A DNA stretch of 64,000 nt from Epinephelus fuscoguttatus (Eukaryota; Chordata; Actinopteri; Perciformes; Serranidae): NCBI RefSeq assembly GCF_011397635.1, contig NC_064760.1:25121356-25185355 (forward strand), read 5' to 3'. Shown one piece after another: positions 1,344-46,873 of this stretch. The notes beneath the pieces were generated by a model. That model was given only the letters and a program-made list of their open reading frames with translations, had not been told where the DNA came from and searched no databases. Every line of letters starts with the position of its first letter. The stretch's first letter is position 1. The position numbers and the translations under genes are program-made.

Positions 1344-4300
1344 ATGCTGTTGTTATGTGTGACTGTTTCCTGCGTCTTGTTTGGTGAGTATAAATCACAC
1401 AGGCCCCCAGAAGGAATACTACTATGCAGGTTTAACCCGTTTACTATTTAACAATACAGTTATTTTTATTTCATGTGTGAAGTCCACGTCATCTCACTGT
1501 GGGCTTTGCACAGCTACAAATATGCCTTTAATGTGAACTGGGTCAACTGACCTGCGTTAAGTCCCGCCCCTCGGTCACAGACTGGCCAATCACAGCGTAG
1601 CAGGGGCCAGCTCCGGCCAGGGTCCGACAGCTCCAGGCCTGTGCTCCATTGAGTGCAGTTCATTCAGATTTTCTCCGCCTGCAGGTTGGCAGTGTGGGTT
1701 TCAAACCAGACTTTGTTAAATTTTGTGCCAGGGGCAGTTATGTCAACTGTGTCGATAGCGTTTAAAGCAACTGAACAGAACATTATGTTCCCACTATGTC
1801 CTGTGAATAATGTTATTGCCTTACTATCATTGAGATCAAATCCAGCAGAAAAAAGAACAAAAAACAAAACACTAAACAGCCAGCACCACCCCCTCCCTCC
1901 ATTTTTATAGTAGTTGGTGCAACTCAGTTAGATTTGTAGGACTTCCTTTTTATTGCCATTTTTATGATGAAACATAAAAACGAGATGCTATTTCAAGTCT
2001 AAAACTTGCACATTTAAAAGTTCTCAGTGCAGTAAAAGTATGAAACTAATAAATAGCCTAGATAAATGAATAAATTTAAAATAGAAGCTACTAAAAAACC
2101 TAATAAAGTGCAGGGAAAAAGAATGCAGTCAAAAGACTAAGTGAGTTCATGTATGGTACAGGTGAATAATTCAACAGTCTGATCGCTGAAGGATAAAAAC
2201 TGTTTCTCAGATTAGTAGTCCTGCAGCGGATGCTACTGAACTGTCCCCCTGACGGCAGGAGATAGAAGGAACTGTGGGAGGGATGATAGGAGTCCTTGCC
2301 TATGCTGTCTGCTCTGCAGGTGCACCTCTGGCTGTAGCTGTTCAACAGAGATGACAATGATCTTCTCTGCTGTTCTGACAATGCTGTCCAGTTTCTGTCT
2401 CTCTTCTGCAGTTTCAGTACCAGGAAGTAATGGAGTATGTCAGGATACTCTATGGTGCCTCGGTAGAAGACATAGTGGCCGGGTCACAAACTTTCTCATT
2501 TTACAGCTAAACAGTATACTAAAATATTTTTGTGAAAACATCTGAGGCAGGAAAAAGGCAATGCAGTAACACAATCTTGATTCATATTTAACCAGCGCTG
2601 ACTAGTTAAACTGAGCTGTGCTCCTTTGTGTCGAAAGGGGTCAGTTGAGGTAGTACGGGCATCTGATCAGGATGGCTCCTGGGCTCGTTCTTTTGGAGGT
2701 GTTCCGGACATGTCCAACTGGTGGGAGGCCCCAGGGCAGACCCAGAACATGCTGAAGGGATTACATATCTCGTCTGGCCTGGGAACGCCTCTGGGTCCCC
2801 CAGGAGGAGCTGGAAATCGTTGCTGGGGAGAGGGACGTTTGGAATGCTTTGCTCGGCCTGCTTCCCTCGTGACCTGGCTGCTGATGAGCGGCTGTAGATG
2901 GATGGATGACTAGTTAAACTGTTTGACCGCAGTTAACGAGCAGTGATTGACAACTGCGTTCGAGAGAATCCTTGGTTTTGATCGGTTGTTTTTGTTTAGC
3001 CACAGCGAGTTTTTGTAAATGCCATTAGGAACATTAGGAGGCATAGGAGCATGCTTTTCTGATTTGCATTTGTCTAATGCACTTCTGCCAGGATTTAGTA
3101 ACAATATCAGCAAATATAGCAAAAAATTAACCTTAATGAATGTTACCAAACACAGCTTTAGAGAGTTACTTTGCCAATTTTCAACCAATTTTGTTTCATA
3201 ATAATGTGGGTTGTATCTGTGAATGGACTTTGCTAAACCTTCCTCCATCACACCAGCGCCCAGATCTCCCTGCTTATCTCTCATGGATGTTTAAAGTGAA
3301 TGGGATACAGTGGTGGAGGCAGAGTTCATTCCTATTAAAGCTGCTCAGTGGTACATGAAGCCAAAAAAAGTTCATCTGCCGCGTATAAAATTACACAGAT
3401 GATATGTACTGCATCTGCATCATTTGGCCCTAGAGTAAGCACACTAGAGACATCTGCTGACCAAGCTGGCTACTTCTAGTTTTGTGCTGATTAATCGTGT
3501 GACTCTTCTAGACCTTCCAAATGTTATCGGATTGAATTCTGATATTAAAACAACTCATTTTAGCAGAGGTTGTGACACTCAGAAAATGTATCTGCTCATT
3601 TACAGACATCTCTTCCACAAGGTGAGTTTATGGGAAAAAGTTTCGTCGGGCCCAGTGGCATCACATGATCGACTCAGAAGTTGTAATTCCACTGTTTGAC
3701 TGCTACAAAAATTGGCTTGAAAGCCCAGCACACTTCCTGGAGGACTGAGAAAAATAGACAAGTACGCGTTAAGTCACCTGCCAGCTGGAGCGTCTATTGG
3801 TCTGATGTGGCGCAGCGCATACTGGTAGTTTTAGGTTTTCTACCTCTAAAGCAAGAGCGAATGCCACAGCCTTTTTCCTGTTTTCTCTGGTCATATAGCG
3901 CCAATTTTAAAAGTGTATCCTTCTGCTGTATAGACAACCCAGTTTTATGAAAAGACTAGCTTTCCAGCATTAAACTTCTTAATATTCCCTCACATCTGTC
4001 TCTTCTTAACTTGTATCTTTCTCATTGAAGGTTTGTCTGCTGGTTTTAAGAATGAAGAGGTGTGCTATGGAAGAAATTTTAGAATACCATCTTCTTATAC
4101 ACCACCTATTTTCTATGGTCAGTTGTACCATACTCCAATTGGGAGACCCGAGAAACTAGTGATGGATAATGGGGAGGTGAGCAGCTATTTGCATTTAAAC
4201 TATCACTGTGGCATCCATGCATTGCAGGATCTGTAATATGACAAAGTCAGAGCAAACCAGGTTTTAAATGAACAGAATCTATTCTCTGTCCTGAATAAAT

Positions 4301-7300
4301 GTATGTGTGATGTCCTCCAAATCAGGCAAAGGATCCACGCCTCAAAGTTTCCAGTACCTCAGTTGAGTTAACAGATGTGACAGAAAGTGATGATGGATAT
4401 TTTTCCATCTCAGATGGTAGTGATACACTTCAAGATGTCATCAGACTGATAATTTTGGGTGAGAATATTACATTACACTGGATATTTAAGTACTCTATTC
4501 CATCACAGAACTTATTTGAAAATATATTTTCCTATAAAGCATGAAGAAAGTCAACCTTTTTTTTTCTCTGTTTTTTTTTTTTTCAGAATGTGCTGAAACA
4601 GAAACAAAGTATTACGGGGAAATGTTCTCCTTTGACATTCCTAGAGAGGCTGAATCCCTGGAGTGTAATTTCCTTACATTTACAGGCCAGCCAAAGGTCC
4701 TGTGGAATCGCTCTGACCGTGACAACAATAAGGGAGACAGAGGGCAGGTGAAGGGTAATGTCTGGGAGATTAGGAGCGTCAGTCAGCGACACATGGGCTC
4801 CTACAACTTCAGACGAAAAGACAAGACTGTACTGTCGAGGATAAAGCTCATAGTTAAAGGTGACGTTCGGTAGTTAATTAAAGTTGCATGTGAGCTTTAA
4901 GACTGCTGCATATCTGATGACATGTTCTGATACAATATACTCTTTATCACACACAGAGCGCTTTAGAAGATATGATACATATGTGAATGAGCAGCTCCTC
5001 ATCAAAAATCCTCTAGTTGACACCATGTGGACTGTGACTTTTAAACGTGAAGGTGCAATTCATTCAAAAACCTTGATGCAAGCAGGCCGTCTGGTTGAAC
5101 AAGATGACTGGGACTTCAATTGGAATTTTGCTGAGAGGATTCAAGTGGTGCGTGACGGTATAAACATTGATCCTGTGGAAAGCACAGACGCTGGTCTCTA
5201 TGAATTCAGAGACCCGGAAGGTCACCTGGCCCAGTTGGTGGATGTGGTGGTATACAATGGTGAGCAACAGCACTTTATTTTTGGAGAAATGTATGAAGCA
5301 ACTGTGACTGATCGTGATTCTAATTAACATATCCACCCCCTTCTGCTCTTACAGAACGACCTCCTACCTTTATTTATGTTGGTATTACTTTCGGGATTAT
5401 ATTTGCGGTGATTGTCATCTGTTGCTGTGTGAGAAAGTTCTGTCGTGAACAGAGCTCTTCTATAAAGGACGAGTCTGCTCCTCAGACTGTAGCTGCACCT
5501 GCACCTGCACCTGCACCTGCACCTGTACCTGTACCTGCACCTGCACGTGGACCTGCTGTGTATTACCATGTCAGTACTTCTTCAAATCAGCATTCAAGTA
5601 TTTATAACATGTTGCTATTTTTACTTCAATATCCTCCTTCCAATTGCAGGATTTGAATCAACCTGGAGCCCCGACTTACACACTTCCACCTGGTTCAGAT
5701 TACTTTAATCAGCCATTGAATTCTCTCATCTCTACAGAACCTACATCTACCTCACCTGAGCCACCGGTAGGTGTTATACAAAAGTTTTCAAACAAAGGAG
5801 AGATACTCATCATCCATCAGTTAACCACTGAGATCATTTTTGACAGGTTACGCTTGTTGGTCTTTAGGATGCTACCATTTAGTTTACTGCACACTGGGCA
5901 TCAACCAGGTCTGGTGAGTGCTAGCTAGCAGCACTACTCATATGGATATTACTGCTAATAACGTTATCCTGACTCAACATCGTTGCTGTTGAAACGTGCC
6001 TGCCTTCCATTTGAATAAGTGGCTTCATTTTAACTATGTAAACACTAAGCAGCACTAACAGAGCTGGGAGCGTGCCTATGTTCCCACAGCCCTATGTTCC
6101 CACAGCTCTATGTTCCCACATTTCCTTTTTCATAAATTTGTATTAGATTTTATCCCCCTTTCTCCCAGTTTGGTAGCCAATTACACCCATCCTATTATCC
6201 CCCCCTACCCTAACCTAACCCTTGTGGGATAATTTTGAAATTTTGTCCTAGAAATGTGGGAACATAGGGTTTAATTTTGAGAAAAATCTTAGAAATATGG
6301 GAACTGTGGGGCCTAATTTTAAGAAAAAATCTTAGAAATGTGGGAACATAGGGCTGTGGGAACATAGGGCCTAATTTTCAGTGAAAAAAAATTCTTAGAA
6401 ATGTGGGAACATAGGGCTGACCCCACAGAGGTAACAGTGATAACAAAGTTAGCTTCGTTAACACCATTAGCAGTGTCAGCATGGATACTGGGGCTAAACA
6501 ATGTTAAAGGAGTTTTGAGGGTCAAAATAAAGTTGCTTATTCACCGTGGTGACCTGGGGGAGGGTGTAGAGTGGCCACCATGTTTCCAAAGCAGTCATTT
6601 CTACACAAGCGGCTAGCTCCCACCTGATGAGGGTGGTGCGCAGTGCAGGGTGGCTAAGGCTAACATTAGCTAACCAGTGAAGACTGGGCAGTGGGGCCTT
6701 TTATTTTAAAAATAGAATAAAAGGATTTCCTGGTTGCATCAGCAGTTGTTCTTGCCCAGACCCCAGCTGCCCTTGACAAAAGGAGTAAGCTAGTAAGTTA
6801 GTTAGCCCTAAATAATGGACCCAGAGATTGTTATTACTTATATGTATATTTTATTTAATACTTGAGGAGACGATTCATTGCTGGAGACACTGTCGTTTGA
6901 TATATTTCAGGCTGATGGAGGACCGTTTACAGGCAAACTTATTGAATTAAGATTGTTAAAGCCGCGTGCTTCTAGGTAATAGTAATGTTAGTAACAGTTA
7001 ACCGTTAGCAAGTTAGCAACTGTTAGTTAACTTAATATATAATCATCGCGCAATGTGTCTTGGGATAGGCTAGGCCACAAATGATTCATCCGTTGCATCC
7101 TCCAAATTCTAAGAAAGAAGGCCACATTTCTCAGCCGCATTTCAAGGAGCCCTCGAGATGGGACAGCCTTGGTCACACCGATGTGACGCAATTGGTCTCC
7201 AAATCTAGCCTTCGAAGGCTGCAGCCCCTGAATTGAGACACAGCTATTATTTCCATTGTTACGTCTATGGCGAATAAACGTCCATGAATCCACGAGAAAA

Positions 7301-8390
7301 TCCTCGTAAAGACAAACTCCTTTTAACTCCAGACCTTGCTTGAAAATTGTCACATTTTTAAGTTTTCTTATATGAAAGTAATCCAGTGGTAGCTGGTTGT
7401 ACATGGGTACATTTCAAACAGAAACTGGTAATAGCTAATTCTGCATATTTGTGATGGTGCCAATTTGCCAAAATGTGCAAATATAGGTGAAGGAACTAAG
7501 CCTATTACTTGTAGCTTCACGGATGTTTCACTCGGCCTGACCTGGCTGATGCGCTTTCCACAGTTGATGCCAGCTTCCTTGGTTGTGTTGAGTTCAAACA
7601 ATAAACTGCAGATTCCAGTTGCAGAAGAGTCACTTTATTTATTCATACCACCAAACAAACATTGAATGAATGTTCATTTCTTTATCTTTTATCCACAGCG
7701 AACACACAACTTTCAGCACGTTGCACAATCCATACCACAGTGTCAAAAACCTTTTGCCCTTCTGGGGCGAAACACCTGATGTCAGCAATATTGTTCCTAC
7801 CATTATACACTAATGCTCCAAATATTAATACAGCCCCACCCAGTGTACACACATGAGCTAAAGAACACAGGGTTCAAGTTGTAGCCTACGCATTGCATCC
7901 ATGCTAACATGATACAACCTGTTTACTTTTTCCAAAGCACTGTAAAATTCCTGCAGTATGTTCTCCTATTTTGACTTGCATGCATTTGTTTTACCTGACA
8001 GGTATACAACCCAGTGGATATCCATGTGAGCTCCCCTCAGCCTGAGGTACACACACAAACATACAGAATTCCCTGTAAATGCATTAAATGTTGGTTATTA
8101 TGATAATAAACAGCAAGAGAGTCCTCATTCTCGGACTGATTTTTGGCAGACTCTTGCATCAAACTTACCAAAACTGTTTTATTAACACGCACATTTGACT
8201 TTTCTTTCACCTCTCTCTCCAGGTTGCACCTCTAGGAGGGCAGGAAGCCGATCCAGCTCCTTTACTCGGTGCTGATTGTCTCTCGTTGGACCCTGAGCCA
8301 AAGTTTGAACTGAAAGGACTGCCCTCTGCCCCCCCTCTCAGTTTAGACTCCAGTTGTGTTTACAACTCAGAAAAACTCAACTTTCTGTAA
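1344..8390 (+). CDS. Array gene 1: three-domain Ig-like type I membrane protein
   Basis: Nine coding exons join in frame to 479 codons: 1344-1383, 4031-4176, 4326-4458, 4587-4859, 4957-5259, 5355-5569, 5650-5766, 8002-8046, 8223-8390. Every junction has GT and AG. Residues 1-13 start a signal peptide. Residues 14-106 (two exons), 107-197 and 198-298 are three Ig-like domains on phase 1-1 exons with D-x-G-x-Y F-strand signatures but no following cysteine. Domain 2 has an NRS glycosylation sequon. Residues 299-370 hold the membrane helix, a CCC juxtamembrane cluster and an Ala-Pro repeat. The tail is Pro/Ser/Thr rich and ends KLNFL. The start is the first ATG after the acceptor and matches the paralogues. 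The family is not recognised; a cell-surface receptor role is inferred from architecture only. Confidence 0.75.
2090..2420 (-). mobile_element. LINE reverse-transcriptase C-terminal fragment in gene 1 intron 1
   Basis: The minus strand encodes a peptide with LLPSGGQFSSIRCRTTNLRN followed by SFYPSAIRLLN. This is the basic C-terminal tail typical of fish CR1/L2/Rex1-group LINE polymerases. Only the tail is left, inside the first coding intron of gene 1. No target-site duplication was found. Confidence 0.5.
2614..2907 (+). mobile_element. 5'-truncated RTE/Rex3-like LINE end with target-site duplication
   Basis: The sequence matches the well-known 3' end of fish RTE-type LINEs, with coding remnants resembling FGG-VPDMSNWWEAPGQTQ and a terminal GATGGATGGATG repeat. 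It is bracketed by a 14-bp direct repeat, GACTAGTTAAACTG, at 2600-2613 and 2908-2921. The copy is a short 3' fragment and cannot move itself. Assignment to Rex3 rather than another RTE line is from memory of the family. Confidence 0.6.
3330..3760. repeat. Unclassified interspersed repeat, copy A
   Basis: About 400 bp here is recognisably related to 57060-57460: both run from 'cagtggYacatgaa' through 'gcatcattgggccc'-like and 'ggcatcacRtga'-like stretches to 'cccagYacacttcctgg'. Several translated fragments are short and unconvincing, so this is likely a non-autonomous repeat rather than a gene. It lies in intron 1 of gene 1. Confidence 0.45.
5485..5551 (+). repeat. In-frame hexanucleotide repeat coding for Ala-Pro
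   Basis: A GCACCT-like hexamer is repeated about ten times inside exon 6 of gene 1, giving an APAPAPAPAP-VPVP-APA run just after the transmembrane segment. Gene 4 has a shorter APAPAPA version at the same place, while genes 2 and 3 do not. Because it is a multiple of three, length change would not shift the frame. Confidence 0.8.
5767..8001. other. Expanded intron 7 of gene 1 with repeat insertions
   Basis: This intron is about 2.2 kb; the same intron is about 0.5 kb in gene 3 and 0.7 kb in gene 4, so gene 1 has gained repeats. At 6072-6425 there are inverted and direct copies of GTGGGAACATAGG, giving a palindrome-rich block. The stretch 7030-7600 has moderate minus-strand reading frames of no recognisable family. 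No exon was identified in it. Confidence 0.45.
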
Positions 8391-10071: not shown

Positions 10072-10079
10072 AATGTAAT

Positions 10080-11110: not shown

Positions 11111-11148
11111 CTTAAATTAAAGTGGAAGTCTGTGCCAAATTTGCTCGA

Positions 11149-11273
11149 CATGCGCAGTTTGCGCACACAAGGCGCAGTAATGACGCAAACAGTAAGGTAA
11201 GCCTCGCCCAGACCAGTTTCCTACACTGAGGCGAAATACAACTAGATCTTAAGGAGTTTAACGTTGCTTCGCA
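11149..11273 (+). promoter_or_regulatory. Gene 2 promoter block and non-coding first exon
   Basis: This matches the gene 1 block: TGCGCAGTTTGCGCAC, GGCGCAG and AATGACGCAAAC followed by 'taagcctcgcccag'. The non-coding exon ends at a GTAAGT donor at 11274, and an acceptor (ctctctgcag) ends at 11392 just before the start codon exon. Confidence 0.55.
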
Positions 11274-11395: not shown

Positions 11396-14300
11396 ATGAT
11401 ACTGTTGCTTGTGACTGTGTCCTGCGTCTTGTTTGGTGAGTATAAATCCTTTATCCTCACGGAAGATATGTTACGATGCAGGTTTAACCCATTTAACTTT
11501 ACGGTGTTTATTTATTTCGCAAGCGAAGTCTCGGCTCCACAGTGTTATCTGTGCGCGCTATGCAGCTACAAATATGCCAATAATGTGACCTATGCCAACT
11601 GTGCCACTTGCGTTTGAAGCAACTGCGGTGTGTTAAGTGTGTTCCCATATATAAATGTACTTTGTTAGTTGTTATGTTTGTAGTAATTTTCAATATTTTT
11701 GTTTTTGCTATCAATATGTAAATATACATAGTCCTTAGTCTCGCGCAAACCTATAACATACTCACATATCCCCTCGGATTATGCTGCAGACCTAAAGAGA
11801 AGAAAAAGTGTCTGACATGAATCTTACTATAAATGACGAAAACTCTGTCTGTGTGTGTGTCTGTGTTTTTCTCCTCACTGACTTGGTCAATCCATGTGAA
11901 ATTTGGCACAGTGGTAGAGGGTCATGGGAGGATGCGAATGAAGCAATATTACATCAATTGGCCAAAGGGGGGCGCTATAGCAACCGATTGAATGGGCATA
12001 TCTCATGCCCCGTATATCGTAGAGACATACTTTGCACAGAGATGCCTCTCCTCATGAGGAACAAATTTGCCTCAAGAACCCATAACTTCCCGTTATATAG
12101 ATTTTCCATTTTGAATTTTTTGAAAAACACTTAAAATTGATCTCTTCCTAGGAAGTTTGACCGATCTGCATGAAACTCGGTGAACATGCTTAGGAATTTT
12201 TGGGATGACATTTTCATTTGTACAGTGATATAGCAAACAGTTGATTCCTGACAGTCTCCTGATAATACTGGGCTGCTCCAACTTCTCTCTCACTCTTCCC
12301 TTATCACTTCAACAAGCCCTCATGTTTGGTATGGTTGTAGCAAAACGGGTTATTCTGAGAGAGTGGAAATCAGTTTCCCCTCCTTGTTTCAAAGAATGGT
12401 TGAATGACATGGTTTCTTGTATATATTTGGAAGAAATTCGATATACTCTGTCAGACACTCATCACAAGTTCCTTGATGTTTGGGGTCCCTTTATTGAGTA
12501 TATTCGAAGGGATAGGCAGCATCCTCAGAACTAACTATACTGGACTGTATCACTTTGAACGGTATTGACTGCACCGTGCTTTGAACAGTCAAGCTTCTAG
12601 TCTCCTTGACCTCACTTGGTCTCGGTTTTGTGGACTCTGTCTCGGACTGTATAATCCACTTCTGGACTCTTGAATCAGTGTGTAAACTCACATGCATATT
12701 TGTATTTTTGTATACATTTCTGTGGGCGGGCAGCTTGTTTTGTTTTGTTTTGTTTATTTTCGTCTGTGTGTTTTGTATGTGGTTTAAACTTGAAAAACTA
12801 TAAATAAAGTATTAAAAAAACAAAACTCGGTGAACATAATCTAGGGACCAGTATCTAAAGTTCCCTCTTAGCAAAAGTTGGAAAACTTACTAAAACTGAG
12901 CTTCTATAAAGCAATGAATATTGGGGAGGGCGTGGCTCATCACATAAAGGTGTATAACATCTCAAGGGTTTCACCAATCACCACGCAACTTTGTAGGCAT
13001 ATGACCACACATAATCTGAGGGGACCCCTCCATTATTGACCCCATCAAACAAAATGGGGGCGCTAGAGAGCTAATTTCTTATCTAGGCCTAACCACCATA
13101 TCGATTTTTACTAAACTTGGTAGATATGTAGAACAGGACGCCTCAAGGTGACTGGAGAAATTTAACTCTAATTAGCAACTGGGTGGCGCTATAACAACAG
13201 AAAAACGCTTAAAAATGGCTAAAATGCGACCGATCGCTGTGGCTCCCCCTGTGGCCAAATGTTGTTGTTTTTTTTTTTCTTCTAATTTTTGGTGTGATTA
13301 AGTCATGGTATGGTATGCTGTACATATTCACGGAAACTGTCATTGTGTCATTCTGTCAGTCAGTCATTCTGTCTGTCCCTCGTTTTTCTGCTCACTGACG
13401 TGGTCAATCTATGCTTCCCATGTGAAATACCAACGCGCCCCACTTTTAAGCCAGGGGGAGTAATCACTGTCCGAGGGCTGTCGTGGAATGGCAACGAGGA
13501 TGTCAGCCGACCAACACTCGCTACCCGGTCCCTGGTTGCGGCGATTTGCGATGCTGGCCAGCTAGGAGTTAACTAGCAGCCAGTACAGTACAGTCCTCTC
13601 GGCTAGCTAACATTTAGCCATGTTACTTACTGATCCATTAGAAAGAAAGCTAGCTGTACATCAGTTTTGAAGCTTCTTTGGTCACGGAGTTCCCTCCATC
13701 TCTTGAACGCCTGACTGAGGTTTACTCTTGTTTTTCCTCTTCTTTTATCACTCTCCTTTTTGTGCATCCTCGCCTCCTCAGACAGATTAGCTCGTTTTCT
13801 TTTGGGAAGCCGTTTTTCACTCATCTCCAAACTTTGTCCGTCTTTGTGCTCCTGACTCAACTATCTCGTGCCCCGGCCAGTTCCTCATAAGGACCAGCTC
13901 CAGTCCCTGATTGGCTGACCGACCAGTTTGGCAATACATTACGCATTTCCTGCCGTAAAGCAGATTCTTTCCATGAAAATTGCAGAAGCTTATTGCTAAG
14001 TCACTAAGTAACCTATGTAAACGCAGATAGTCTGATTTTACTGTGGCCACTACCCTGTGCAACGCACATTATTTTCATAATGATATATGTAGGCAAAAAT
14101 GATGTCTGTTTCTTCTTTAACTATCTGCCTTTCAATGTGCTACCTCAATTACTAATGTACAGTTTTAGCCCACTAACTATCCCACTATTGGCAATGGTTC
14201 TAATGTACTTTCAATAAAGCAATCGTACCATCAAATTCACAAAAACTCTGTCTGAATACATTGCTCTTCTCAATGGGTTCAGTTGACTATTTAACCTGCA

Positions 14301-17838: not shown

Positions 17839-17859
17839 AATGTAATCAAAGTAAAACTA

Positions 17860-18240: not shown

Positions 18241-18243
18241 ATC

Positions 18244-30188: not shown

Positions 30189-33100
30189 ATGCTATTGTTG
30201 CACGCCACTGTTCTGTGCATCTTGTATGGTGAGTTTAAATCACACAGCCTCACAGAGGAAATGCCACCATGCAGGTTCAACACATCTGACATTTCACTTA
30301 ACGGTTTTTTCTGTCTTTAATTAGCGAAGTCTCGGATCCACACAGTCTATATGTGGGCTCTGCACAGCTGCAAATACGCCAATTATGTGACCTATGTCAG
30401 CTGCGTTTAAAGCAACTATAAATGTATAAAGTTATATAGCTGGGCTACTGAATACATGTTTGTTAAAAGATCAAATCAAACAAGAGAAAAAAACAGCCAT
30501 CACCGCCCTCCTCCTTCCGATTTTATAGTATTTGGCTCAACTTTGTTATATTAGTAGTAATTTCATTGTATTTATTTTTTGCTATCAATATGTAAATTTA
30601 CATAGTCTTTAGTGCCAAGCAAACCTACATAGCATAGGCCTACTACTCATCTATCCTCACCGATTATGCTGGAAACTTCATTAAAAAGAAGAGAAAGTGT
30701 CTGACATTGATTTAATTGAATAAATAAAATAAAATATTTTCTTTTCTTTTTTTTTTTTTTTTTTTTTACAGATTCTGAGCCACTTGGCACTGAATTAGCC
30801 TAATGTCTTTAAATTGTATACTTATCGACACATTTGATCTTTTTATGGATTTACTTAATTAGTTTTTATTTCGGATGTTCTGAAGTGATTTAAAGGTGAC
30901 TAGATTTTTGGTCACTAATTTGACAATTCAGGGATATTGAGGCTGTATCATTTCTGTAATTCTTTTTTAAATGTGGCTTCATTTGTTCTGATTTTGTGAT
31001 ACTTCAAAAATGACTCATGTGACCTTACAGCAGATGCTGATTCAATAGTGCCCTCAAACATGTTGGTTTACGCCTGCAGCCATTGTTTAAATGGCCCCAA
31101 AACTTGCAATACGTGGTGACATGGGATGGGAGACATGTGAAATGCAGCACAATGGTGACATGTTGCAACTGTGGGATAAATTAATCAACATGCCTGATAA
31201 CAGACTTACCAAACAAATTTTATATTATGATTTTTCAAATAATTATTCTTTGTATTCTATGTAAGATAAATTACTCACTTACCTTACATTCACCTACCTA
31301 CATAGTAATTAAGTTTTTTTTTTTTTGTTCTCCTGGTATCAGATGTGTTCAAATGTTTTCCGCATGTCCTCAGATGTTTAGTATCTGACTTATCTTAATA
31401 TTCCCTCCCATCTATCTTTTTTTTTTAACTATTTCTCTCATTGAAGGTTCATCTGCTGGTCTCAAGCATAAAACGGTGTGCTATGGCAAAAATTATGAAA
31501 TACCATTTTCTTATGCACCACCTCTTTTCCATGGTCCATTGTACTTCACTCCAAATGGGGGATCCAGGAGGCTAATGATGGATAATGGGGAGGTGAGCAG
31601 TTTTTGGCACTGTCATTTAAACTATAACCAATATCACTATGATATCATGCATTGCAGGATCTGGAATATGATAAAAGTCAGAGCAAACCAAGTTTTGAAT
31701 GAACAGAATCTGTTCTCTGTCCTGAGTAAATGAATCTGTGATGTCCTCCCAATCAGGCAAAGGATCCACGCTTTAAAGTTTCATATATCTCAGCTGTATT
31801 CAAAGATTTGACAGAAAGAGATGATGGATTTTTTTCTGTCTCAGATGATAATGGCATGTTTCACGATGTCATCAAACTGGAAATTTTGGGTGAGAATATT
31901 ACATTATACTGTATATTCAAAGACTCTATTCCATCAGAAAACATTTTTGGGAATAGATTTTTCTATAAAGTGTGCAATTAGTCCATCCTGTCTTTTTTCC
32001 GGTATGTGTTTTTTCAGATTGTGCTGAAAAGGAAACAAGGTATTACGGGGATAGGTTCTCCTATCATATTCCTAGAGAGGCTGCATTTTTGGAGTTCACT
32101 CCCCTTGACAGTGAGGACCAGCCAAAGGTCCTGTGGAACCACACCAACCGTCACACCAATAGGGGAGGCAGGGGACAGGTGAAGGGTAATGTGTGGGAGA
32201 TTATGAACGTAAATCAGGGAGACATGGGCCACTACAACTTCAGAAGAAAAGACAACACTTTGCTGTTGAGGATACAGCTCACAGTACAAGGTGATGTTCT
32301 GTAGATTATTAAAGTTGCATCTGAGCTTTTACACTGCTGCGTATCTGATGACATATTCTTATACAATATACTCTTTATCACACACAGAGGGATTTAGACA
32401 GTATGATACAAAGGTGGACAAGCGGCTCCTCATTCAAAATCCTCTAGGTGATGTGCCGATGACTGTGACTTTTACACCTGAGGGGGAAATGAAACACTAC
32501 ACATTGATGAAAGCAGGCCTTCTGGTTGAAGATGAGATGGACTCTATGCCTTGGACTTTTACACGGAGGATTTTGGTTGTGCAAGATGGCATAGAGATTG
32601 ATCCTGTGGAAAGCACAGACTCTGGGACCTACGAGTTCAGAGACCCGCAAGGTCACCTGGCCCTGACTGCGCAGGTGGTGGTAAAACGTGGTGAGCAGCA
32701 GCACTTTATTTTTGGAAAAATGTATGAACAAACTGTGACTGATCACGATTCTAATTAACATATCCCCCTTCCCCCTTCTTCAGTTGTTATATCTCCAGCC
32801 GTTGGTTATGGTACTTCTATTTTTGGGATTTTGTTTGCGGGTATTATCTGCCGTTGCTGTGTGAAAAGCTGCTCTAAAGAGAGCTCTTCTAAAAGGAACA
32901 AGTCTGCTCCTCGGACTGCAGGTGCACATGCACGGGCACCTGCACCTGCACCTGCTGTCTATAGCCATGTAAGTGCTTCCTTAAATAGATATTCAACTAT
33001 TTTTAACACATGTTGCAATTTTTATTCCAATATCCTCCTTCCAATTGCAGGATTCGGATCGATCTGGAGGCCCAATTTACTCTGCTGCACCTGGTTCAGG

Positions 33101-34309
33101 TTACTCTCATCAGCCATTGAATTCTGGAGGACGAACATCTATCTTAACTGAGCCAATGGTAGGTGTTATACAGAGGTTTTCAAACAAGGGAGAGATACTA
33201 ACTATCAGTCAGTTAACAGCTGAGAATAATTTTAACTGGTTATACATGTTGGTCTGTAGGTTAACTTTAATTTTTGTCCTGTGGCCACTCGCGGTATTGT
33301 TGGGAAAAAAAATCCCCTGTGACCCAAATACCATTTTCCTTATAGACCACATTGTAAAAGGTCGCGTCTCTAGAAAAAGCAACTTAAAAATCTGAGACAT
33401 CATCACAATGTAAAGTCTATGACCTGAGTGGGAACTCATGGATGGGGCCAGCGGGAGAAACACTACTGTGCATATTCAGATGGCTGCATGCCGTGGAGGT
33501 AAAATCGAAAGCTATAGAACTTTTTTTGATGTGTGGGCAAAGTGAGCAATTCTATTGGAATGAACAGGCACCACCACCATTTGGCCTGGTGTCTATTATT
33601 AAAGTCTATGGGTGCGCATAGAGCTAACCATTGGAGACAATGGTGGAGACTGGAGGGTGGGCAAACAGGACTTGGCTATAGCTAATTCACATTGTGTATA
33701 CAAATATGTACACAAATGTAAATGTATACAAATAGAGGATCAAAAAACAAGCTTTAATTTGTAACAGACAGCATAATGCATTGAATTCATGCTAACAATC
33801 TACTTCCTGTTTACCTTCTCAAAGCATTATGAGCTCCTGCAGTATGTTCTCCTGTTTTGACTTGCATGCATTTGTTTTACCTTACAGGTACACAACCCAT
33901 TGCAAATCCATGTGAGCTCCCCTCAGCCTGAGGTACACACACAAACATACAGAGTTCCCTTTGAATGCATTCAATTTTGGTTATTATCTTAACAAACAGC
34001 AAGAGTCCCCATTCTCACACTGATTTTTGGCCCTTCAAAGGCAGACTGTTTTCTTACATTGACCTTATCAACACTGCTTGATCAACACATACATGTAGTT
34101 TTTATTTATTTATCTATCTTTTTCACTTCTCTCTCCAGGTTGACCCTCTAGGAGTGCAGACAGACGATCCAGCTCCAACACTCGGCTTTGATTGTCTCTC
34201 GTCGGACCCTGAGCCAAAGTTTGAGCTGAAACTGCCCTCTGCTCCCCCCCTCAGTTCAGATGCAACTTTCAGTGATGTTTACACCTCAGATAAACTCAAC
34301 TTTCTGTAA
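30189..34309 (+). CDS. Array gene 4: three-domain Ig-like type I membrane protein
   Basis: Nine exons give 467 codons: 30189-30228, 31447-31592, 31757-31889, 32018-32290, 32388-32690, 32784-32968, 33051-33158, 33888-33932, 34139-34309. Domains lie at residues 14-106, 107-197 and 198-298. As in genes 2 and 3 the ectodomain has two cysteines (TVCYG and DCAE), and the F-strand motifs are ERDDGFFSVS, GDMGHYNFRR and STDSGTYEFRD. Domain 2 has an NHT sequon. The transmembrane exon begins VVISPAV and runs into CRCCVKSCS; a second acceptor 16 bases downstream (tctccag) would not keep the frame, so I chose the first. The tail has a short Ala-Pro run and ends SDVYTSDKLNFL. Function unknown. Confidence 0.75.
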
Positions 34310-37300: not shown

Positions 37301-37757
37301 TCCTTATGTGATTAATATATAAGCCTTTCTTAGTGTTACATGGGCGCAGCTTGATGACGTCATGTAGACCCTCGAAATTTTTATTAGATGAAAATGTCAA
37401 CGCTAAATGGCCCCTCAAATAACCTAACTGTCTCCATATAATTCACATTTTACCGACTCTTGAGCGCTTTACCATAGTATGAAGCTTTATTAGTGGTTAA
37501 TAGAGCTCACGGGCGGCCTGACAAGATTTATCTCCGATGTACCTAAACGCATCATGTCAACACCCATAGCAACGCCCTTCAGGGTTGGTCAAGACCAAAT
37601 CCAATAACGGTGCAGTACGGAGCATGTCCACTGCACTGCTCCTACCTTAATGTTGTGACTACATTGAGATGTTTTGGGTCAGTTAAGTCTCGAAAACAAT
37701 AAACTGGTCGGCGACGGTTTACACTAGACTGGGGTTTCGTGTTTTGAATCACGGAAG
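34310..37757. other. Gene 4 3' UTR and intergenic DNA
   Basis: The first 600 bases match the other 3' UTRs, but the poly(A) context at about 34930 is degraded (taataatg). The next AATAAA candidates are 36122-36127 and near 36577, so the transcript may be longer than those of its paralogues. The rest is AT-rich, without a recognisable gene up to the first exon of gene 5. Confidence 0.45.
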
Positions 37758-39950
37758 ATGATGTTTGTGTGGTTGTTGCTGGGTGCCTTTGTTTGCATGG
37801 GTAAGTGTAAACATTATTAGTCCTACTTTAGCGAGACTGCTAAATGCTAAAATGCTGCTTTACACTCTTACTTAACCACATTTCAAAGGAGATAATCGTA
37901 CCTTTTACTTAAGTAATATTTATTTGACAGCTACAGTCTCTTTTTGCTTTAATTTTATACACTAAATTGCATTATTGTAGATTAAATGTGCTGTGAACAA
38001 ATCATGTGCTAACATTAATAACACATTTCTAACTTGGCCTGCAATACTAATAGGTTCATTATGTTTTGTGTCTTACAAAATTTATATTTATATACAGTTT
38101 TTTTTTAAGTATGTTGCACAATTTTACAAAAAAAGTGCACTCAAGTTATAATATCCACTTTTTATCTTAGGGAGTCAATGCTTTAACGTTAAGTTTAGCT
38201 TAAAACATTTACTCAGAAGTACCTCTTGCTAGATTTATATAAGTAAAAGATTTGAATATGATTGGCATTTGTAGTAGTGTAAACGTAGAGTCACTACATA
38301 TAATATTATGGTTATATACTGTATATGTCCAGGTTTGTTAGGTTTAAATTATTTGATGTTTTAATATTTGTTTCCGTCAGACACAAATAAATAAAATCAT
38401 GCAAAAATATGTAGATGCATGTTAAGATAATGTGGAAAAATGCAATGCAAACAATGGTGGTGGTGGGTGTCTGGTAAATCAATAATGTTTCTGTTGGACT
38501 GTCTCTTACAAGGCCAATCACAGGTCATTTATCAGCAATATGGGAGCATTTACAACCTTTGGACGCTCAGAAGGACTCACTTCATCGAGTTCAACCCCAA
38601 AAACAGCTCAGATGTGAGGACCTTGTGGAAATCAGGAGACCCTGAAATCAGCGAGGACAAGAAGTATGTAAGGACGTACGTCTCCTATGTGATGAAGAAT
38701 TTAACTCCGAGAGACAGTGGTCACTACATCCTGAGAGACAAAGATATGAGAGAATTGACCACTCATACCCTTGAGGTAGAAGGTGAATATTCTTCTTAAT
38801 TTTCTGTTTCTCTAATTTCCTATTCTGGCACCCCTTTTTTTTCAAAACACTGTGGCTGTCACACTCTTCTCTTGGGCCATTTGGATTTAAGCATCCCAAG
38901 TGTAATATGTTATTGACTGTATGTTAGTGTAATGTTATGGCTGCATGGCAGTGTGGGTCAAGATAATACTTGGTTTATCAAAAGCATCACTCAAACATGC
39001 ACAATGATCAAGCTAAAAAGAAGATAGCATTTTATTTTCTTGCGATATTAAAGTGTATACTCAACCTTCATATTCATAAACCAAGACTGTATGGGAGGAG
39101 TGTTTGATACTTACACAATTTTTGGATGGAGACTCAATTTAATATCCTCTCTCTTGCACTCCCTGTCTTCCAGCCATCACAAAAGACTTTAAACGGCAAC
39201 CTGGTGAACGCCTCAGCTTTACTATTGCTCTGGAACCGAGCTCCTGCAACATTTACTTCTTCCCAGAAAGCAACGGTCAGCCATTAACTATTGACATTGT
39301 TCGTCAAGGCAAACTGCAGGGGGGACTGGATCAGTATAAATGCGTAGGGTTTGAGCTGTACGGGTCATGTGGAATTTTAAATAAGGCCCTCCAAATGGCA
39401 TGCAGAGGACGCTTTGAGGTCAGAGATCAGAATGGCGACACGGCCTTAAAGGTGTCACTGGAAATGAGTCGTAAGTAACTTCTGTGTTTTTTTTTTTTAG
39501 TGTCAGACTGTGTTATTGAATTATTGCCTTGTCTTAAAAGCCTCATTTGGCTTCATGTGTGTAAGTGCCAATGTTCAAAGTTAGGACTCAACAATCTCAT
39601 GTTTTTATAACATGAATGAAATGAATACTCCAGAATCAACTGGTAAACTTACTTGAAATAGCTGCAAACCTCGAGTGTTTGTAGTTTTGTCCTTTGCAGA
39701 ATTCAGCAGCTGTGGTTATCTTGGAGTCATTAGAAACCAGTCCTGCGGCATAATCCATTTATTATTTAAAATTTATTAAGGATAAAACCCTTGAGATGCA
39801 TCATCTCATTTTCGAGGGGGTCCGATACAACAACGAAAAACAGATGAAATTACAAAACAATACACGAAACATTTCACAAATAACTGCCCAAAACAGGCCA
39901 GTTACAACAAAGACAGGACAATACAAGGATAACACCCAACAATACAGGTA

Positions 39951-40015
<65 letters not shown>

Positions 40016-43000
40016 TCACCTGAAGCATGTGCAGTTCAACTTAAAATAAGAAAACAAACTGCTTTTGAACATGTGAAAGGATGTCAGGGAGCGAATATGT
40101 GGTGATAATTTATTCCAGTGTGATGGGGCCATAAATCTAAAAGCTCTCTTTCCAATTAGTTTATGAACAGAAGGTACAGTGGAGTAGGATTGTTCTGAAA
40201 GTCTTAGTTAATATCTTGATGAATACTCGACTAGATATTGTTTTAGATAATGAGGATAGTCTAAATGTATGCATTTGAAAATCAGTTGAAGCCAGTGAAT
40301 ATGTCTTCTTGTTTCAAGTGATGACCAGTTAAGTGAACTATACATGGAACAGTGATGGTTCATTAATAAGTTGTGTCATATGCAGACTCTCAAAATTATT
40401 TCTGTCTTTAGCAGAGGATCTGTATAACCAGTTTTTATTAAAATCCCTTAAGATGATCATTTCATTTTTGGAGGTAATAGAATTTATGGTGGAAATTAAA
40501 CAGGTAGAAGACTCAATGAGGAGAGAGGGGGTTCTATAGACATTTCCAATGGTTAGATATTTGTTTTGATGAAGAGTAATTTTAACAAATAGGCTTTCGA
40601 AGTATAATGGTTCAGTTACAGGTAGAATTAACTCAGACACTAAGTTAGATGAAACATATGTAACCAAGCCACCACCTCTGGAGCCCCTCTCGGATCTATA
40701 AAATACACAATTTGCAAGATTAATTTCACTGTCTTGAATTCTGTTGCTGAGCCATGTTTCAGATAGCGTTATAATGTGTGGATTATGCTGCATCACCCAT
40801 GCACGGAGTAAGTCACTTTTGGGCAAAAGACTTCTGATGTTAAGATATATAATTTTTAAACCTTTACAGTGATCCATTTTTGAAGACAGGAGTTAGTGGA
40901 GATAGGCTACCATCACTAATAGAAAAAGACTGCGTCTCTAGCTGCAGGCTAAGTGAAAACGTTGCAGACGATTGTACTAATGTCATTGAAGAGATGTATG
41001 AGATGCATACACACAAAACAGACAACAGTAAAGACAACACACAAAAAACGAAAACAAAAACAGGCCCAGCAGCCACAGCCATCACGAGCCAGGGCACACC
41101 AATCAATGGGCCAAAAAAGTGAACAAATCAAAAAGCATTAGGCAATTCCCAAGCCAAATGTTCAACAGTCACCAAGCAAGGCCGAGAGAAATAACTAAGA
41201 ATTAAAATAGTACAAGTAAGACATGAAATAATTTTGGCATGGTGAGTCTGGATATACAGTTGAGAGACCAGCGGTACAGAAGGCAGCGTTGCTGCGTTGT
41301 CATAGCGATGACGGTTGCAACGATGACGTCATTGACATGTGCTAGTGTTTGAAAACATGAGCAGGAAAAATTTCTCTGCTGTTCATCAGTATGCTCACTC
41401 ATTGACTGCAAACCACTGCACCTAAAGTGGAAGGAGTGTATGTTGCCGTATGTCGACATACTTTGGAATGTGAGCATATGGATGAAAACTTATCATCATT
41501 GAAGTTCATAGTAACTGACATGAATTAAAAGGTCCAGTGAGTAGGATTTTGTGGCATCTAGCCATGAAGTTACAGATTGTGACCAGCTCTACTCACTCCT
41601 TCCTTTCCAAGTGTGTATGAGAACCATAAACTGTATAAAATAAGGGACGCAGCCACCATACGTCACTTGTTGGTTTGTGGACACCTGCTTTCATCATCTT
41701 GGTTTTTTGGTCTAACCATATTCAAAAGAGAGGCTCGCAATGGGGAAAAGTGAGGGGTGGATCTCACTGATAAGCTGAGGACACTGTCTGCAGACAGCTT
41801 GTCGCAGAGCGTCCCACCCTCAGCCATGCATAAGTGTAAGCCTTAATAAAATGTAAATGGTGGAGTTATATAAAAATACACCCCCCAAATAGTTGTCATG
41901 GATGTTGAAGTAAGATTTAGAGACTAAAACTTTTTTCTGTAGCAGACCGTAAACATGTTTGTTTCTGCTGTAAAGTTGGGCACTTTAACATGAGGTCTAT
42001 CAGAGGACTGATTTGCTCTTGAAGACAGCCTCAAGTGGCCGTTCATGAAACTGCAGTTCTTGGCATATATGCACTGGCTTCGATTTTCAGTCCCTGATGT
42101 TGTCATTTCTAAACTACCAAAAACACAATTATTCTTAGTTACAGGTGAAAGTACACTAATAAAAACATAGTTATGCATATCATATTCCACTTCTGCCAAT
42201 AGATCCCTCTAAATCCTACACACTGGTCCTTTAACGGACAAGTTCCTCATGTTGGGAACTTTGGTTCTTCACTTTCTTGCTGGGAGTTAGATGAAAAGAT
42301 GGATAGCACTCTCATGTCTGTACAGTAAATATTAAGACACAGAAGACACTGGAACACAGGAAATGGGTGAAAAGCTACAAAGCCTACGAACAAGTTGCAG
42401 TTTTAGGGGGAGTTATGTGCTGAATGAGGTGCTCGTGGTTGGAGTGGGTTACCTTTGGAGTAAAAGTATCACTTTGTTAATAAATGGATGACCAACATGT
42501 TTTGACCTCAATAGTCTTTATCAGGGTATATCCAGAGTGGTACTGATCTTCTCATCTAACTGTTGGCAAGAAAGTGAATGCCAAAAAATCCCAAAATGTA
42601 GAACTGCTCCTTTTTAAACTGATCACAGCTGCAATGTTATGTGCAAGACAAAACTAGAAACCAAGAACCAAGACTGTACAGGAGGAGTGTGTGATACTCA
42701 TATGATTTTGGGTCTTGTGCATCTTGTCTTTCAGCATCTACAGAGACCCATGAACGGAAATCTGGTGAATTCCTCAGCGTCAGTTTTGATCTGAAACAAG
42801 GCTCCTGCAATGTTTTCTTCTTCCCAGAAAGGACAGGTGAAAAGAGAGAAGTGATGGTTGAGATTGTACGTCACGGCTGGATGCAGCCTGTTTCGGATGA
42901 ATATGGTTGCCGAGGGTTTGACCTGTTAAAGCCATGTGGGATTGTAAATGAGGCCCTCCAGTCATCATGCAGCGGACACTTCGAGATCAGAGATCATAAT

Positions 43001-44132
43001 GGCGACACGGCCTTTGAGATGTCACTGGCAGTGGAGTGTAAGTGTTTTCTAAGTGTCAGATGACTATATTATCAAATTATCTTACCTTGTCATATTTGCT
43101 ACTTTATTCTGGCATCTTTGTTTTTGATGTCCAATTTACAAGATTTACAGAAGGACAGATACTGATGATGATGATACTCATGATACATGATACTACTAAT
43201 ACAAATCAGAGTAAAGCAGGATATCCTCACATTTGAGAGACTCTAATTAAAGTAACATATTAACATTCTTGCAAATTACAGGGTCAGTTATCAAAACTGT
43301 TAGTGGTACATTTTCTGCCCATTGACTAATTGACTCGTTGTTTCAGCCGAACCTTATGTGCCATCTGACTGGGCTTTTGGTGCTGGTGTAGCCCTCACCT
43401 CGCTTTTCTTCTGCTGTGTGAGGTACTGCTGCTGTGGGGGGAGCCCTGCCAAAGAGGACGGTCCTGAGACTGATGCTGCTGAACCTGCTAAGCATTACCA
43501 AGAGGTGGACACACTCTGCATTAAAGCTGCCTTACCTGTGTGTACAATACTGTATAGTTAAAAGTCCTGCTGTTATAGTTACCCATTGTGGTTCTGTTTA
43601 CTCCAAATTCAGAATGACAGTGAGCCTTCTAGATGGAGGCCACACTACCTCAGTCAGCCCTCTGAGACACCAAAACTAGTCTTCTCACAGCGTAGTCTGA
43701 CTCGCCCACTGGTTAGTGTGTGTTGCCTTTCATAGAAAGAACTTCTCCTGCTCTTGTTGGCTCAACACTTGTGATATGTTTACGCTCTTCCCTCTCCACT
43801 GCTAATATGTTGTGTTGCTCCGCTCTGCAGATAAACCAGCCTTCTACAGCGAATGTGCCGCCAGCTTCTCCTCAGGTATAAAATACTTGAGTACAGTTGT
43901 ATTTTTTTCAACGTCTGTTTGCATTTCAAATTTAGTTTTTAAGCTGTGACCAGCAACTCTATAAGTGGGTCAGTCCACGAAAATTTCCTCACCCTTTGAC
44001 TGACAGTTTTTGCCCTGAAATTGGGGATGGAGGTCAAGTGTGTGTGTGAAAGTGTATGTTTGGTGCGGGGCAGTGGAAGTGGCCTACAATAACAAATGGA
44101 TTCATGTAACATGACCACAATTTATAGAAATT

Positions 44133-44170
<38 letters not shown>

Positions 44171-46873
44171 GAGGTAGACAGACATACACATCATTTTGCT
44201 ACGTCCTCTTTCGTAACTCATGGAGCAGTTGTTAGAGGGAGTAACACAGTATGAGTTATGAGTGTTTGTGAGGTGTGTGTGTAAAATGCATGGATGCATG
44301 TGTGCAATTTTCCTTCCTATAAAGTATTCCATAGATTTCCCATGTTATCTGACTGAGCAGCACACATCGCAAAATATGATAAAGCTTCTAAACATGGAGT
44401 TACGTCTTGATACCATGAAGTCCATTTATTAGCTGTAGTGGGGCTCTTTGGTTTTCTTATTTGTCATGGAATTTAAATTTTCCTGAACCCTCTGAGACAC
44501 TACAACCAATCGTCTTACGGCGTAGTCCGACTCTCCTGCTGGTTAGTGTGTGTTGCCTTCTCTGCTCTTGTTGGCTCAACACTTGTGATATGTTTACGCT
44601 CTTCCCTCTCCACTGCTAATATGTTGTGTTGCTCCGCTCTGCAGATAAACCAGCCTTCTACAGCCGCCAGCTTCTCTGAGGTATAAAATACTTGAGTACA
44701 GTTGTATTTTTTCAACGTCTGTTTGCATTTCAAATTTAGTTTTTAAGCTGTGACCAGCAACTCTATAAGTGGGTCAGTCCATGAAAATTTCCCCACCCTT
44801 TGGCTGACAGTTTTGCCCTGAAATTGGGGATGGAGGTCAAGTGTGTGTGAAGGTGTATGTTTGGTGCGGGGCAGTGGGAGTGGCCTACAATAACAAATGG
44901 ATTCATGTAACATGACCACAATTTATAGAAATTCACACACACACATACACACACACACAGGTAGACAGACATACACATCATTTTGCTATGTCCTCTTTCG
45001 TAACTCATGGACCAGTTGTTAGAGGGAGTAACACAGTATGAGTTATGAGTGTTTGTGAGGTGTGTGTGTAAAATGTAGGGATGCATGTGTGCAGTTTTCC
45101 TTCCTATAAAGTATTCCGTAGATTTCCCATGTTATCTGACTGAGCAGCACACATCGCAAAATATGATAAAGCTTCTAAACATGGAGTTACGTCTTGATAC
45201 CATGAAGTCCATTTATTAGCTGTAGTGGGGCTCTTTGGTTTTCTTATTTGTCATGGAATTTAAATTTTCCTGAACCCTCTGAGACACTACAACCAATCGT
45301 CTTACGGCGTAGTCCGACTCTCCTGCTGGTTAGTGTGTGTTGCCTTCTCTGCTCTTGTTGGCTCAACACTTGTGATATGTTTACGCTCTTCCCTCTCCAC
45401 TGCTAATATGTTGTGTTGCTCCGCTCTGCAGATAAACCAGCCTTCTACAGCGAATGTGCCGCCAGCTTCTCCGCAGGTATAAAATACTTGAGTACAGTTG
45501 TATTTTTTTCAACGTCTGTTTGCATTTCAAATTTAGTTTTTAAGCTGTGACCAGCAACTCTATAAGTGGGTCAGTCCATGAAAATTTCCCCACCCTTTGG
45601 CTGACAGTTTTTGCCCTGAAATTGGGGATGGAGGTCAAGTGTGTGTGAAGGTGTATGTTTGGTGCGGGGCAGTGGGAGTGGCCTACAATAACAAATGGAT
45701 TCATGTAACATGACCACAATTTATAGAAATTCACACACACACATACACACACACACAGGTAGACAGACATACACATCATTTTGCTATGTCCTCTTTCGTA
45801 ACTCATGGACCAGTTGTTAGAGGGAGTAACACAGTATGAGTTATGAGTGTTTGTGAGGTGTGTGTAAAATGTAGGGATGCATGTGTGCAGTTTTCCTTCC
45901 TATAAAGTATTCCGTAGATTTCCCATGTTATCTGACTGAGCAGCACACATCGCAAAATATGATAAAGCTTCTAAACATGGAGTTACGTCTTGATACCATG
46001 AAGTCCATTTATTAGCTGTAGTGGGGCTCTTTGGTTTTCTTATTTGTCATGGAATTTAAATTTTCCTGAACCCTCTGAGACACTACAACCAATCGTCTTA
46101 CGGCGTAGTCCGACTCTCCTGCTGGTTAGTGTGTGTTGCCTTCTCTGCTCTTGTTGGCTCAACACTTGTGATATGTTTACGCTCTTCCCTCTCCACTGCT
46201 AATATGTTGTGTTGCTCCGCTCTGCAGATAAACCAGCCTTCTACAGTGAATGTGCCGCCAGCTTCTCCTCAGGTATAAAATACTTGAGTACAGTTGTATT
46301 TTTTTCAACGTCTGTTTGCATTTCAAATTTAGTTTTTAAGCTGTGACCAGCAACTCTGTAAGTGGGTCAGTCCACGAAAATTTCCCCACCCTTTGACTGA
46401 CAGTTTTTGCCCTGAAATTTGGCATGGGGGTCAAGTGTGTGTGAAGGTGTACATGCTGAGTGCATTTACTCCCTCAAAACATATTTGCAAAGTTGATTTT
46501 TTGGAACATTTGAAGCCTGAAGTCTCTAGACTGTGGGAGGAACATGAGATAACATGCAGACTCCACACCGGAGGGCTCCGGCAGATCGGCGGGTTCTGAC
46601 GTTATAATTTGACATGAGTATTCTCTATGTGGCACATGTAAAACAACAGATGCTAATATTTGTATTTTATACATGAACCCGCTTATGATCGTCTGACACA
46701 TGCTGACCTTTCTATCTTTTTCTCTCCAGGTTTCAGCTCCGGACCCTCCAACTGTCCCTGTCAACTATGACCCTGCTCTACGTTTCGAACTAAAGATGAA
46801 AATTCCCTCTGCTCTCACTTCAGAATCACCTTACTCTGGTGTGTATATCTCAGACAAATTCAACTTCCGCTAA
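37758..46873 (+). CDS. Array gene 5: diverged Ig-like membrane protein with multiplied tail exon
   Basis: Eleven exons join in frame to 494 codons: 37758-37800, 38513-38782, 39174-39470, 42735-43037, 43347-43504, 43613-43711, 43831-43875, 44645-44680, 45432-45476, 46228-46272, 46730-46873. Signal peptide MMFVWLLLGAFVCMG. Residues 15-104 are an Ig-like domain with RDSGHYILRD, no cysteines and two sequons (NSS, NLT). Residues 105-203 and 204-304 are a duplicated pair, each with four cysteines at matching places and FE(V/I)RD(Q/H)NGDTA. The short helix is followed by FFCCVRYCCCGG. The tail has four copies of a micro-exon (INQPSTANVPPASPQ and variants) and ends GVYISDKFNFR, matching genes 1-4. 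The donor after 43504 (GTGGAC) is weak and is the least certain junction. How many micro-exons are used cannot be told from DNA. Confidence 0.65.
39755..41110 (-). mobile_element. Internally deleted CR1/L2/Rex1-group LINE in gene 5 intron
   Basis: Minus strand 40877-40338 encodes an apurinic-type endonuclease (IIYLNIRSLLPKSDLL, ITLSETWLS, GGGLVTYVSSNL, TIGNVYRTP). About 200 bases later (40140-40016) is the polymerase C-terminus (SHWNKLSPHIRSLTSFHMFK) and then a 3' UTR ending near 39755. The catalytic polymerase core, normally about 2 kb, is missing, so the copy is dead. 40878-41110 may be its 5' region. Ends are approximate. Confidence 0.65.
39953..40011. repeat. (AT)n microsatellite
   Basis: An uninterrupted TA dinucleotide run of nearly 60 bases lies within the 3' part of the LINE copy. 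Confidence 0.95.
41529..42230. mobile_element. MITE with TTAA target-site duplication
   Basis: Ends are inverted repeats, AAGGTCCAGTGAGTAGGATT on the left against an inverted AGGACCAGTGTGTAGGATTT-like right end. Each end is bordered by TTAA (41525-41528 and 42231-42234), as for Kolobok or piggyBac-type elements. The 702-bp interior has no recognised protein. It lies in the large intron of gene 5. Confidence 0.65.
43658..46447 (+). repeat. Tandem duplication of an approximately 0.8-kb unit carrying a tail micro-exon
   Basis: Units begin at 43658, 44488, 45275 and 46071 with CCCTCTGAGACAC and recur with spacings of 830, 787 and 796 bp; the fourth is partial. Each contains the 3' part of exon 6 (without a usable acceptor in units 2-4), a GTTAGT donor-like site, the CTCTGCAG acceptor, the micro-exon and a (CA)n stretch. 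Units 2 and 3 are nearly identical, so the last step is recent. Confidence 0.85.

Follow-up and report, generated by a model that had tools for sequence, protein, structure and literature searches.

Models of Ig domains appear to lean on a Cys-Trp-Cys core, and the closest described receptor systems differ in how far they keep it. The teleost NITR, DICP and NILT receptors keep the canonical V-domain cysteines, and activating members of receptors of this type have a charged residue in the TM helix. The CAR/JAML/CTX-JAM group also has canonical cysteines, and some I-set domains of titin and myomesin lack the disulfide. The ITSM is a tail feature of the SLAM branch of CD2-related receptors. NILT tails carry ITAM or ITIM, according to the available part of the source. 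The available sections of PMC5990624 describe a V domain without disulfide in CD2 and CD58 of fish and mammals, and those of PMC12051499, which treats the roles of Ig core positions, name CD2 as an exception to the disulfide among Ig domains. In zebrafish, NK-like and T cells were found to express Ig-like membrane proteins that had not been characterised, some of which have no orthologues outside teleosts (PMC5340972, partial text), so a family of fish Ig receptors that has gone unrecognised is, in kind, to be expected. Among the literature matches listed, a partial coverage made up of titles and the starts of abstracts, no family such as the one below is described, and the available portions of PMC7472110 and PMC7226832 hold nothing that bears on a family of this kind. 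Annotated but unnamed orthologues may well exist.

We analysed a window of 64 kb (the whole stretch of DNA under study) from Epinephelus fuscoguttatus, in which five consecutive genes, all on the plus strand, have a CDS span of 1344-46873. These genes probably represent an unrecognised, tandemly expanded IgSF family of recognition or adhesion receptors with three V-type Ig domains that lack the B-F disulfide. The mechanism that we propose is that the array would encode tandemly duplicated type I membrane receptors with an ectodomain of three V-type Ig domains, that both the B-F disulfide and the C-strand Trp are gone from every domain, and that the sandwich would be kept together by packing about the aromatic corner that strand F retains.

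The five genes that the sequence-only reading had proposed were confirmed at CDS positions 1344-8390 (gene 1, 479 aa), 11396-17008 (gene 2, 444 aa), 23051-27258 (gene 3, 460 aa), 30189-34309 (gene 4, 467 aa) and 37758-46873 (gene 5, 419 aa). Splice sites were refined by hand; the introns of all five genes are GT-AG throughout, and the frames are open from ATG to stop in 5/5. Genes 1-4 share a plan of a 40-nt coding leader exon, a two-exon D1, D2, D3, a TM exon and two to three phase-0 tail exons. Gene 1 has its leader at 1344-1383, D1 at 4031-4176 and 4326-4458, D2 at 4587-4859, D3 at 4957-5259, TM at 5355-5569 and tail exons at 5650-5766, 8002-8046 and 8223-8390. In gene 2 the corresponding positions are 11396-11435 (leader), 15059-15204 and 15368-15500 (D1), 15623-15895 (D2), 15991-16284 (D3), 16385-16545 (TM), 16629-16745 and 16838-17008 (tail). 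For gene 3 they are 23051-23090, 24640-24785 and 24946-25075 (D1), 25203-25475 (D2), 25573-25878 (D3), 25982-26139 (TM), 26222-26332, 26839-26883 and 27085-27258, and for gene 4 30189-30228, 31447-31592 and 31757-31889 (D1), 32018-32290 (D2), 32388-32690 (D3), 32784-32968 (TM), 33051-33158, 33888-33932 and 34139-34309. Genes 1, 3 and 4 have a 45-nt tail exon; a search for it showed that it is missing from gene 2, whose intron there, 16746-16837, is only 92 nt long.

In gene 5 each of the three domains is a single exon, and a TM exon and tail exons follow: the leader lies at 37758-37800, D1 at 38513-38782, D2 at 39174-39470, D3 at 42735-43037, TM at 43347-43504 and the tail at 46228-46272 and 46730-46873. 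The earlier proposal that the domains lie on phase 1-1 exons thus applies to D2, D3 and all gene 5 domains, which are single exons, but not to D1 of genes 1-4, which an internal phase-0 intron divides into two exons. The unsplit D2 and D3 differ from the CAR/JAML/CTX-JAM group, to which we found no sequence-level match.

Searches with tblastn placed the likeness of the gene 1 D1-D3 exons to those of genes 2-4 far beyond chance (E 2e-13 to 5e-35). Gene 5 had been read as a like member of the array; its colinearity with the other genes did not stand, as its first domain resembles D2 (E 3.9e-7 for gene 2, 2.9e-7 for gene 3, 1.7e-5 for gene 4 and 0.022 for gene 1), and its second and third domains, which carry four Cys each, match one another at E 5.9e-28. 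Ahead of gene 1, on the plus strand, a block at 1060..1130 reads GCGCATTTTGCGCACA..GGCGCAGCTATGACGCAAACAG..GAAGCCTCGCC and aligns before genes 2-4 with some substitutions. This block and its counterparts contain GCGCATTTTGCGC and ATGACGCAAA and form, by eye, the best-conserved upstream part; it looks like a shared promoter element.

The absence of the canonical cysteines, the central claim of the sequence-only reading, was borne out in all 15 domains, where Cys is missing from both the F-strand motif and the B-strand position. We assigned the core positions manually, guided by models and alignments, with the B position taken as a fixed offset from the A'-B turn. At the F-strand Cys position every domain has a hydrophobic residue (I, V, F or L). 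The B-strand position holds S, W, S and F in D1 of genes 1-4, I in all four D2 domains, N, S, Y and N in D3, and T, I and F in the gene 5 domains. It is thus hydrophobic or aromatic in nine domains and polar (S, N or T) in six, so 'hydrophobic replacement' is incomplete. None of the 15 C-strand motifs has a Trp in the V register; D3 of genes 1-3 has one four residues upstream of the C-strand motif Phe, and in D2 of genes 1-4 a Trp, W40, falls on C' in the model and on strand C in an I-set register. The F-strand aromatic corner (Tyr corner) is Tyr in 9/15 domains and Phe in 6/15. The missing cysteines might have been carried by other exons; however, a six-frame scan of the 64-kb window found no exon with a canonical F-strand motif. 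The pattern [DE]x[GA]x[YF]xC matched once, on the minus strand and outside the gene models, whereas 20 first-order Markov sequences gave 2.1 matches on average.

The core had also been called cysteine-free, which is too strong: no domain has both Cys of the canonical pair, in either the V or the I-set register, but other Cys are present. D1 of genes 1-4 has exactly one, which precedes the G of the A'-B turn by two residues (..CYG[RK]N.., 4/4), and at the D1/D2 junction of the same genes a Cys opens the D2 exon directly after D1 strand G (..IL[DE]C, 4/4). D3 of these genes has none (4/4), and D2 of gene 1 has an extra Cys in LECNF, within the segment formerly called the B strand. In gene 5, D1 has no Cys, and D2 and D3 have four each, non-canonical and at matching places.

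A non-Ig fold had been named as a finding that would count against the claim; the predicted folds are Ig for the two of the 15 domains that were modelled. Gene 4 D2 (32017..32289, plus strand) was predicted by AlphaFold2 as a V-type Ig domain with pLDDT 88.8 and pTM 0.80 and with strands at residues 3-8, 14-17, 24-29, 37-41, 54-56, 59-62, 71-76 and 82-90. Gene 5 D2 (39173..39469, plus strand), with its four non-canonical Cys, was likewise predicted as V-type (pLDDT 91.9, pTM 0.84). A V-type Ig sandwich without the canonical disulfide is thus supported by prediction for these 2/15 domains. The same models overturned the earlier assignment of LEFTP and VTFTP to strand B, since the AlphaFold2 model puts LEFTP of gene 4 D2 on strand C, and VTFTP aligns with the same strand in the model of gene 5 D2; strand B is the stretch upstream of each (GDRFSYHI, GERLSFTI). 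An I-set reading of D2, with LEF as strand B and W40 as strand C, was also considered. It fits the sequence profile alignment to PDB chains, and its register would make the gene 1 LEC Cys a lone B-strand Cys, but it disagrees with the models in the order of strands and in the ranges matched, and we rejected it and kept the V reading. Compared with BFVD, the gene 5 D2 model found viral Ig-like proteins, with TMq 0.43-0.78 among the 50 matches listed, a likeness of the model that is one of shared fold only.

Profile searches, which had been suggested as a check of Ig homology, did return Ig chains in PDB, but weakly. The best single stretches for the D2 profile were Robo1 (E 0.57), titin (2.7) and contactin-4 (3.2). 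Titin and myomesin resemble the array in having Ig domains and were matched at whole-chain E-values of 7.3e-6 and 1.6e-4, which sum several weak stretches; they are, however, cytoplasmic muscle proteins, whereas the hydrophobic leader and TM-like run here point to a surface receptor. The D1 profile matched one unrelated chain only in PDB (E 1.7), the D3 profile gave 10 weak matches there, the best of them unrelated (E 0.31), and by single sequence the only PDB match was hemolin (E 0.19). The match of D1 to the D2 profile alone was weak (probability 23%, E 0.00088). Among curated Pfam Ig families, none of the five full-length proteins scored above the gathering cut-off; the best scores were 21.1 bits for Ig_CD22 (cut-off 27) and 20.0 for I-set (cut-off 23.7), and gene 5 had no match. 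A whole family without the Cys-Trp-Cys core and without a Pfam match above cut-off indicates that immune-gene inventories can overlook families of this kind. A homologue search with the D2 profile gave 81 viral and 45 prokaryotic pattern matches, none confirmed, in contig collections that are viral or prokaryotic, so this null result says little about fish.

The remaining cysteines suggest how stability might be rebuilt. In our alignment, the invariant Cys of D1 in genes 1-4 is close to where strand A' ends, and the junction Cys comes just past strand G. The ends of strands A' and G adjoin in V domains, and a bridge probably forms between these two residues; in the proposed mechanism D1 would be re-stapled in this way. 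In zebrafish Cd2, strands A and G are joined at their ends by a disulfide (PMC5990624, available part); it presumably lies in the IgC2 domain, since the same text gives the IgV as lacking a disulfide and the IgC2 as having two, while one sentence says IgV-like. By DSSP, the gene 5 D2 cysteines (model residues) fall at 25 before strand C, 57 before D, 66 before E and 77 between E and F, and topology suggests pairs 25-66 at one end of the sandwich and 57-77 at the other. Two replacement disulfides each are probable in gene 5 D2 and D3, and would hold these domains. If the alternative staples are real, the array is a natural test of exchangeable Ig-core parts in extracellular receptors, beyond the single-domain CD2 exception.

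These features invite comparison with CD2, CD58 and SLAM, which are also type I surface adhesion receptors with a V-type Ig domain that lacks the B-F disulfide. The zebrafish Cd2 A-G disulfide (PMC5990624, partial text) parallels the D1 staple that we infer here. The earlier claim that loss of the Cys pair is unusual holds for loss in every domain, but V-domain loss has a precedent in CD2/CD58 (PMC5990624, PMC12051499, both in part). The array might accordingly be a derived CD2/CD58/SLAM branch, in which the V domain lacks the disulfide by descent and the membrane-proximal domains were replaced by V-type duplicates. Such a descent would agree with the lack of a B-F disulfide in CD2-type V domains across fish and mammals, with the A-G end disulfide of Cd2 (available text of PMC5990624) and with the naming of CD2 as exceptional among Ig domains (available text of PMC12051499). 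However, all three domains here lack the canonical pair, and there is no C2 domain with a canonical disulfide, a feature of CD2 and SLAM, since D2 and D3 lack a B or F Cys in 5/5 genes, so that the membrane-proximal domains are all without it. The ITSM is found in 0/5 tails, no sequence match was found, and no CD2- or 2B4-type model appears among the Pfam matches reported. We consider this descent improbable. CD2 was absent among the 50 structural matches listed for either domain model, which is not evidence of absence. What we could not match to known systems, within the partial literature covered, is the loss of the pair in every domain of a multi-domain receptor.

The signal peptide and TM helix of the five genes were judged from hydrophobic runs; the TM-like run is an uncharged stretch of 17-24 residues in all five proteins, defined by excluding charged residues. 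At its end lies a Cys cluster (5/5), which we guess to be palmitoylated. Neither ITAM nor ITSM (TxYxxV/I) occurs in any of the five tails, and there is no conserved ITIM: loose ITIM-like matches are present in 4/5 tails, never at a shared alignment position. The lack of a conserved ITIM or ITAM, together with the absent V-domain Cys, distinguishes the array from the NITR, DICP and NILT receptors. The tails had been called related, and a C-terminal motif common to all five genes agrees with this; it was kept while the ectodomains diverged, as ~DPEPKFELK..PSA..VYTSDKLNFL in genes 1-4 and DPALRFELK..PSA..VYISDKFNFR in gene 5. As none of ITIM, ITAM and ITSM is conserved, the juxtamembrane Cys cluster and this motif would serve for signalling or anchoring.

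A gene 5 tail exon, absent from the earlier reading in this number, occurs as four tandem copies on the plus strand (43831-43875, 44645-44680, 45432-45476 and 46228-46272), spaced by 787-814 bp and 45 nt long, one being 36 nt. Each of the four keeps the reading frame and has AG/GT sites, and splicing could therefore include as many as four copies of an INQPST... peptide. Around copies 2-4 the sequence is about 95-99% similar over a length of about 790 bp, of which copy 1 has only the last 180 bp in common with them.

Divergence among genes 1-4 varies by domain: dS is 0.059 for D1 of genes 2/3, 0.038 for D2 of genes 3/4 and 0.226-0.427 across the six D3 pairs. Sliding identity showed the same discordant blocks as the per-domain distances, and this discordance fits gene conversion or unequal exchange. 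In 6/6 pairs, D3 exons are more divergent (JC 0.23-0.35) than the preceding intron (0.11-0.26) and the following intron (0.06-0.13). As a sign of selection, exons evolving faster than introns holds for D3 in all six pairs but is not general, since other non-coding sequence is as divergent as exons (D1b-D2 intron, JC up to 0.39 for genes 1/2; 3' flank, taken as 400 nt after the stop, 0.25-0.76). In most pairs D3 also has a dS above the divergence found in its adjoining introns, so intron homogenisation may contribute to the exon-intron contrast.

One-ratio omega was 1.31 for D1, 0.91 for D2, 1.31 for D3 and 0.86 for the tail, none different from 1, which also fits relaxed constraint. Comparison of M2a with M1a over D1-D3 gave 2dlnL 20.55, with 68% of sites at omega 2.08 and 32% at 0.04; these models were run in our own code on four sequences with likely exchange, with M0-scaled branch lengths and a recombination-free model, and the signal for diversifying selection is supportive, not proof. 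The genes could instead be decaying duplicates under relaxed constraint, in which cysteines were lost as good folding was no longer needed, and the omega values of 0.86-1.31, in none of the four segments different from 1, speak for this. The persistence of all five open frames and their splice sites at dS values that reach about 0.4, Cys loss common to all copies including the divergent gene 5, confident predicted folds for both domains tried, the 32% of ectodomain sites at omega 0.04 and a C-terminal motif kept between gene 5 and genes 1-4 all argue against decay, and we regard it as very improbable.

In the receptor family that we favour, the array would be a set of recognition or adhesion receptors in which domain segments are exchanged between copies and ectodomain residues diversify. 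A recognition role, perhaps an immune one, is likely but unproven; ligand recognition together with an immune role is our working interpretation. The discordance in similarity between domains and the selection signal are both in keeping with the earlier idea of an immune-like expansion, but no conserved immune signalling motif accompanies them. Fast-evolving non-immune adhesion proteins, of epithelial or gamete recognition, could diversify in a similar way under sexual or species-recognition conflict. We consider such an origin unlikely, as immune receptor clusters typically form tandem arrays that exchange sequence and nothing positive points to gonad or epithelium. A narrower form of the favoured interpretation is possible, and we hold it tentatively: the genes would be fish-specific immune-type receptors that abandoned the B-F disulfide and core Trp in every one of their Ig domains and rebuilt stability elsewhere, which left the core free to diversify quickly through gene conversion and positive selection. 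The rebuilt sites would be the A'-G staple in D1 and staples at both sandwich ends in gene 5 D2 and D3.

Several other elements lie in the window, all on the minus strand. An Exo_endo_phos endonuclease-like, LINE-like fragment (40338-40892) sits within the gene 5 D2-D3 intron. A long open frame at 48244-49428 has Tc1-type transposase domains (DDE_3, HTH_Tnp_Tc3_2), and a second Tc1/Sleeping Beauty-like transposase, split over two frames, is found at 52227-53386. Downstream of the array are a BRI3BP-family protein (58012-58389; PF14965, E 6.6e-35) and the end of a RING finger (62422-62697), which resembles that of RNF20/RNF40.
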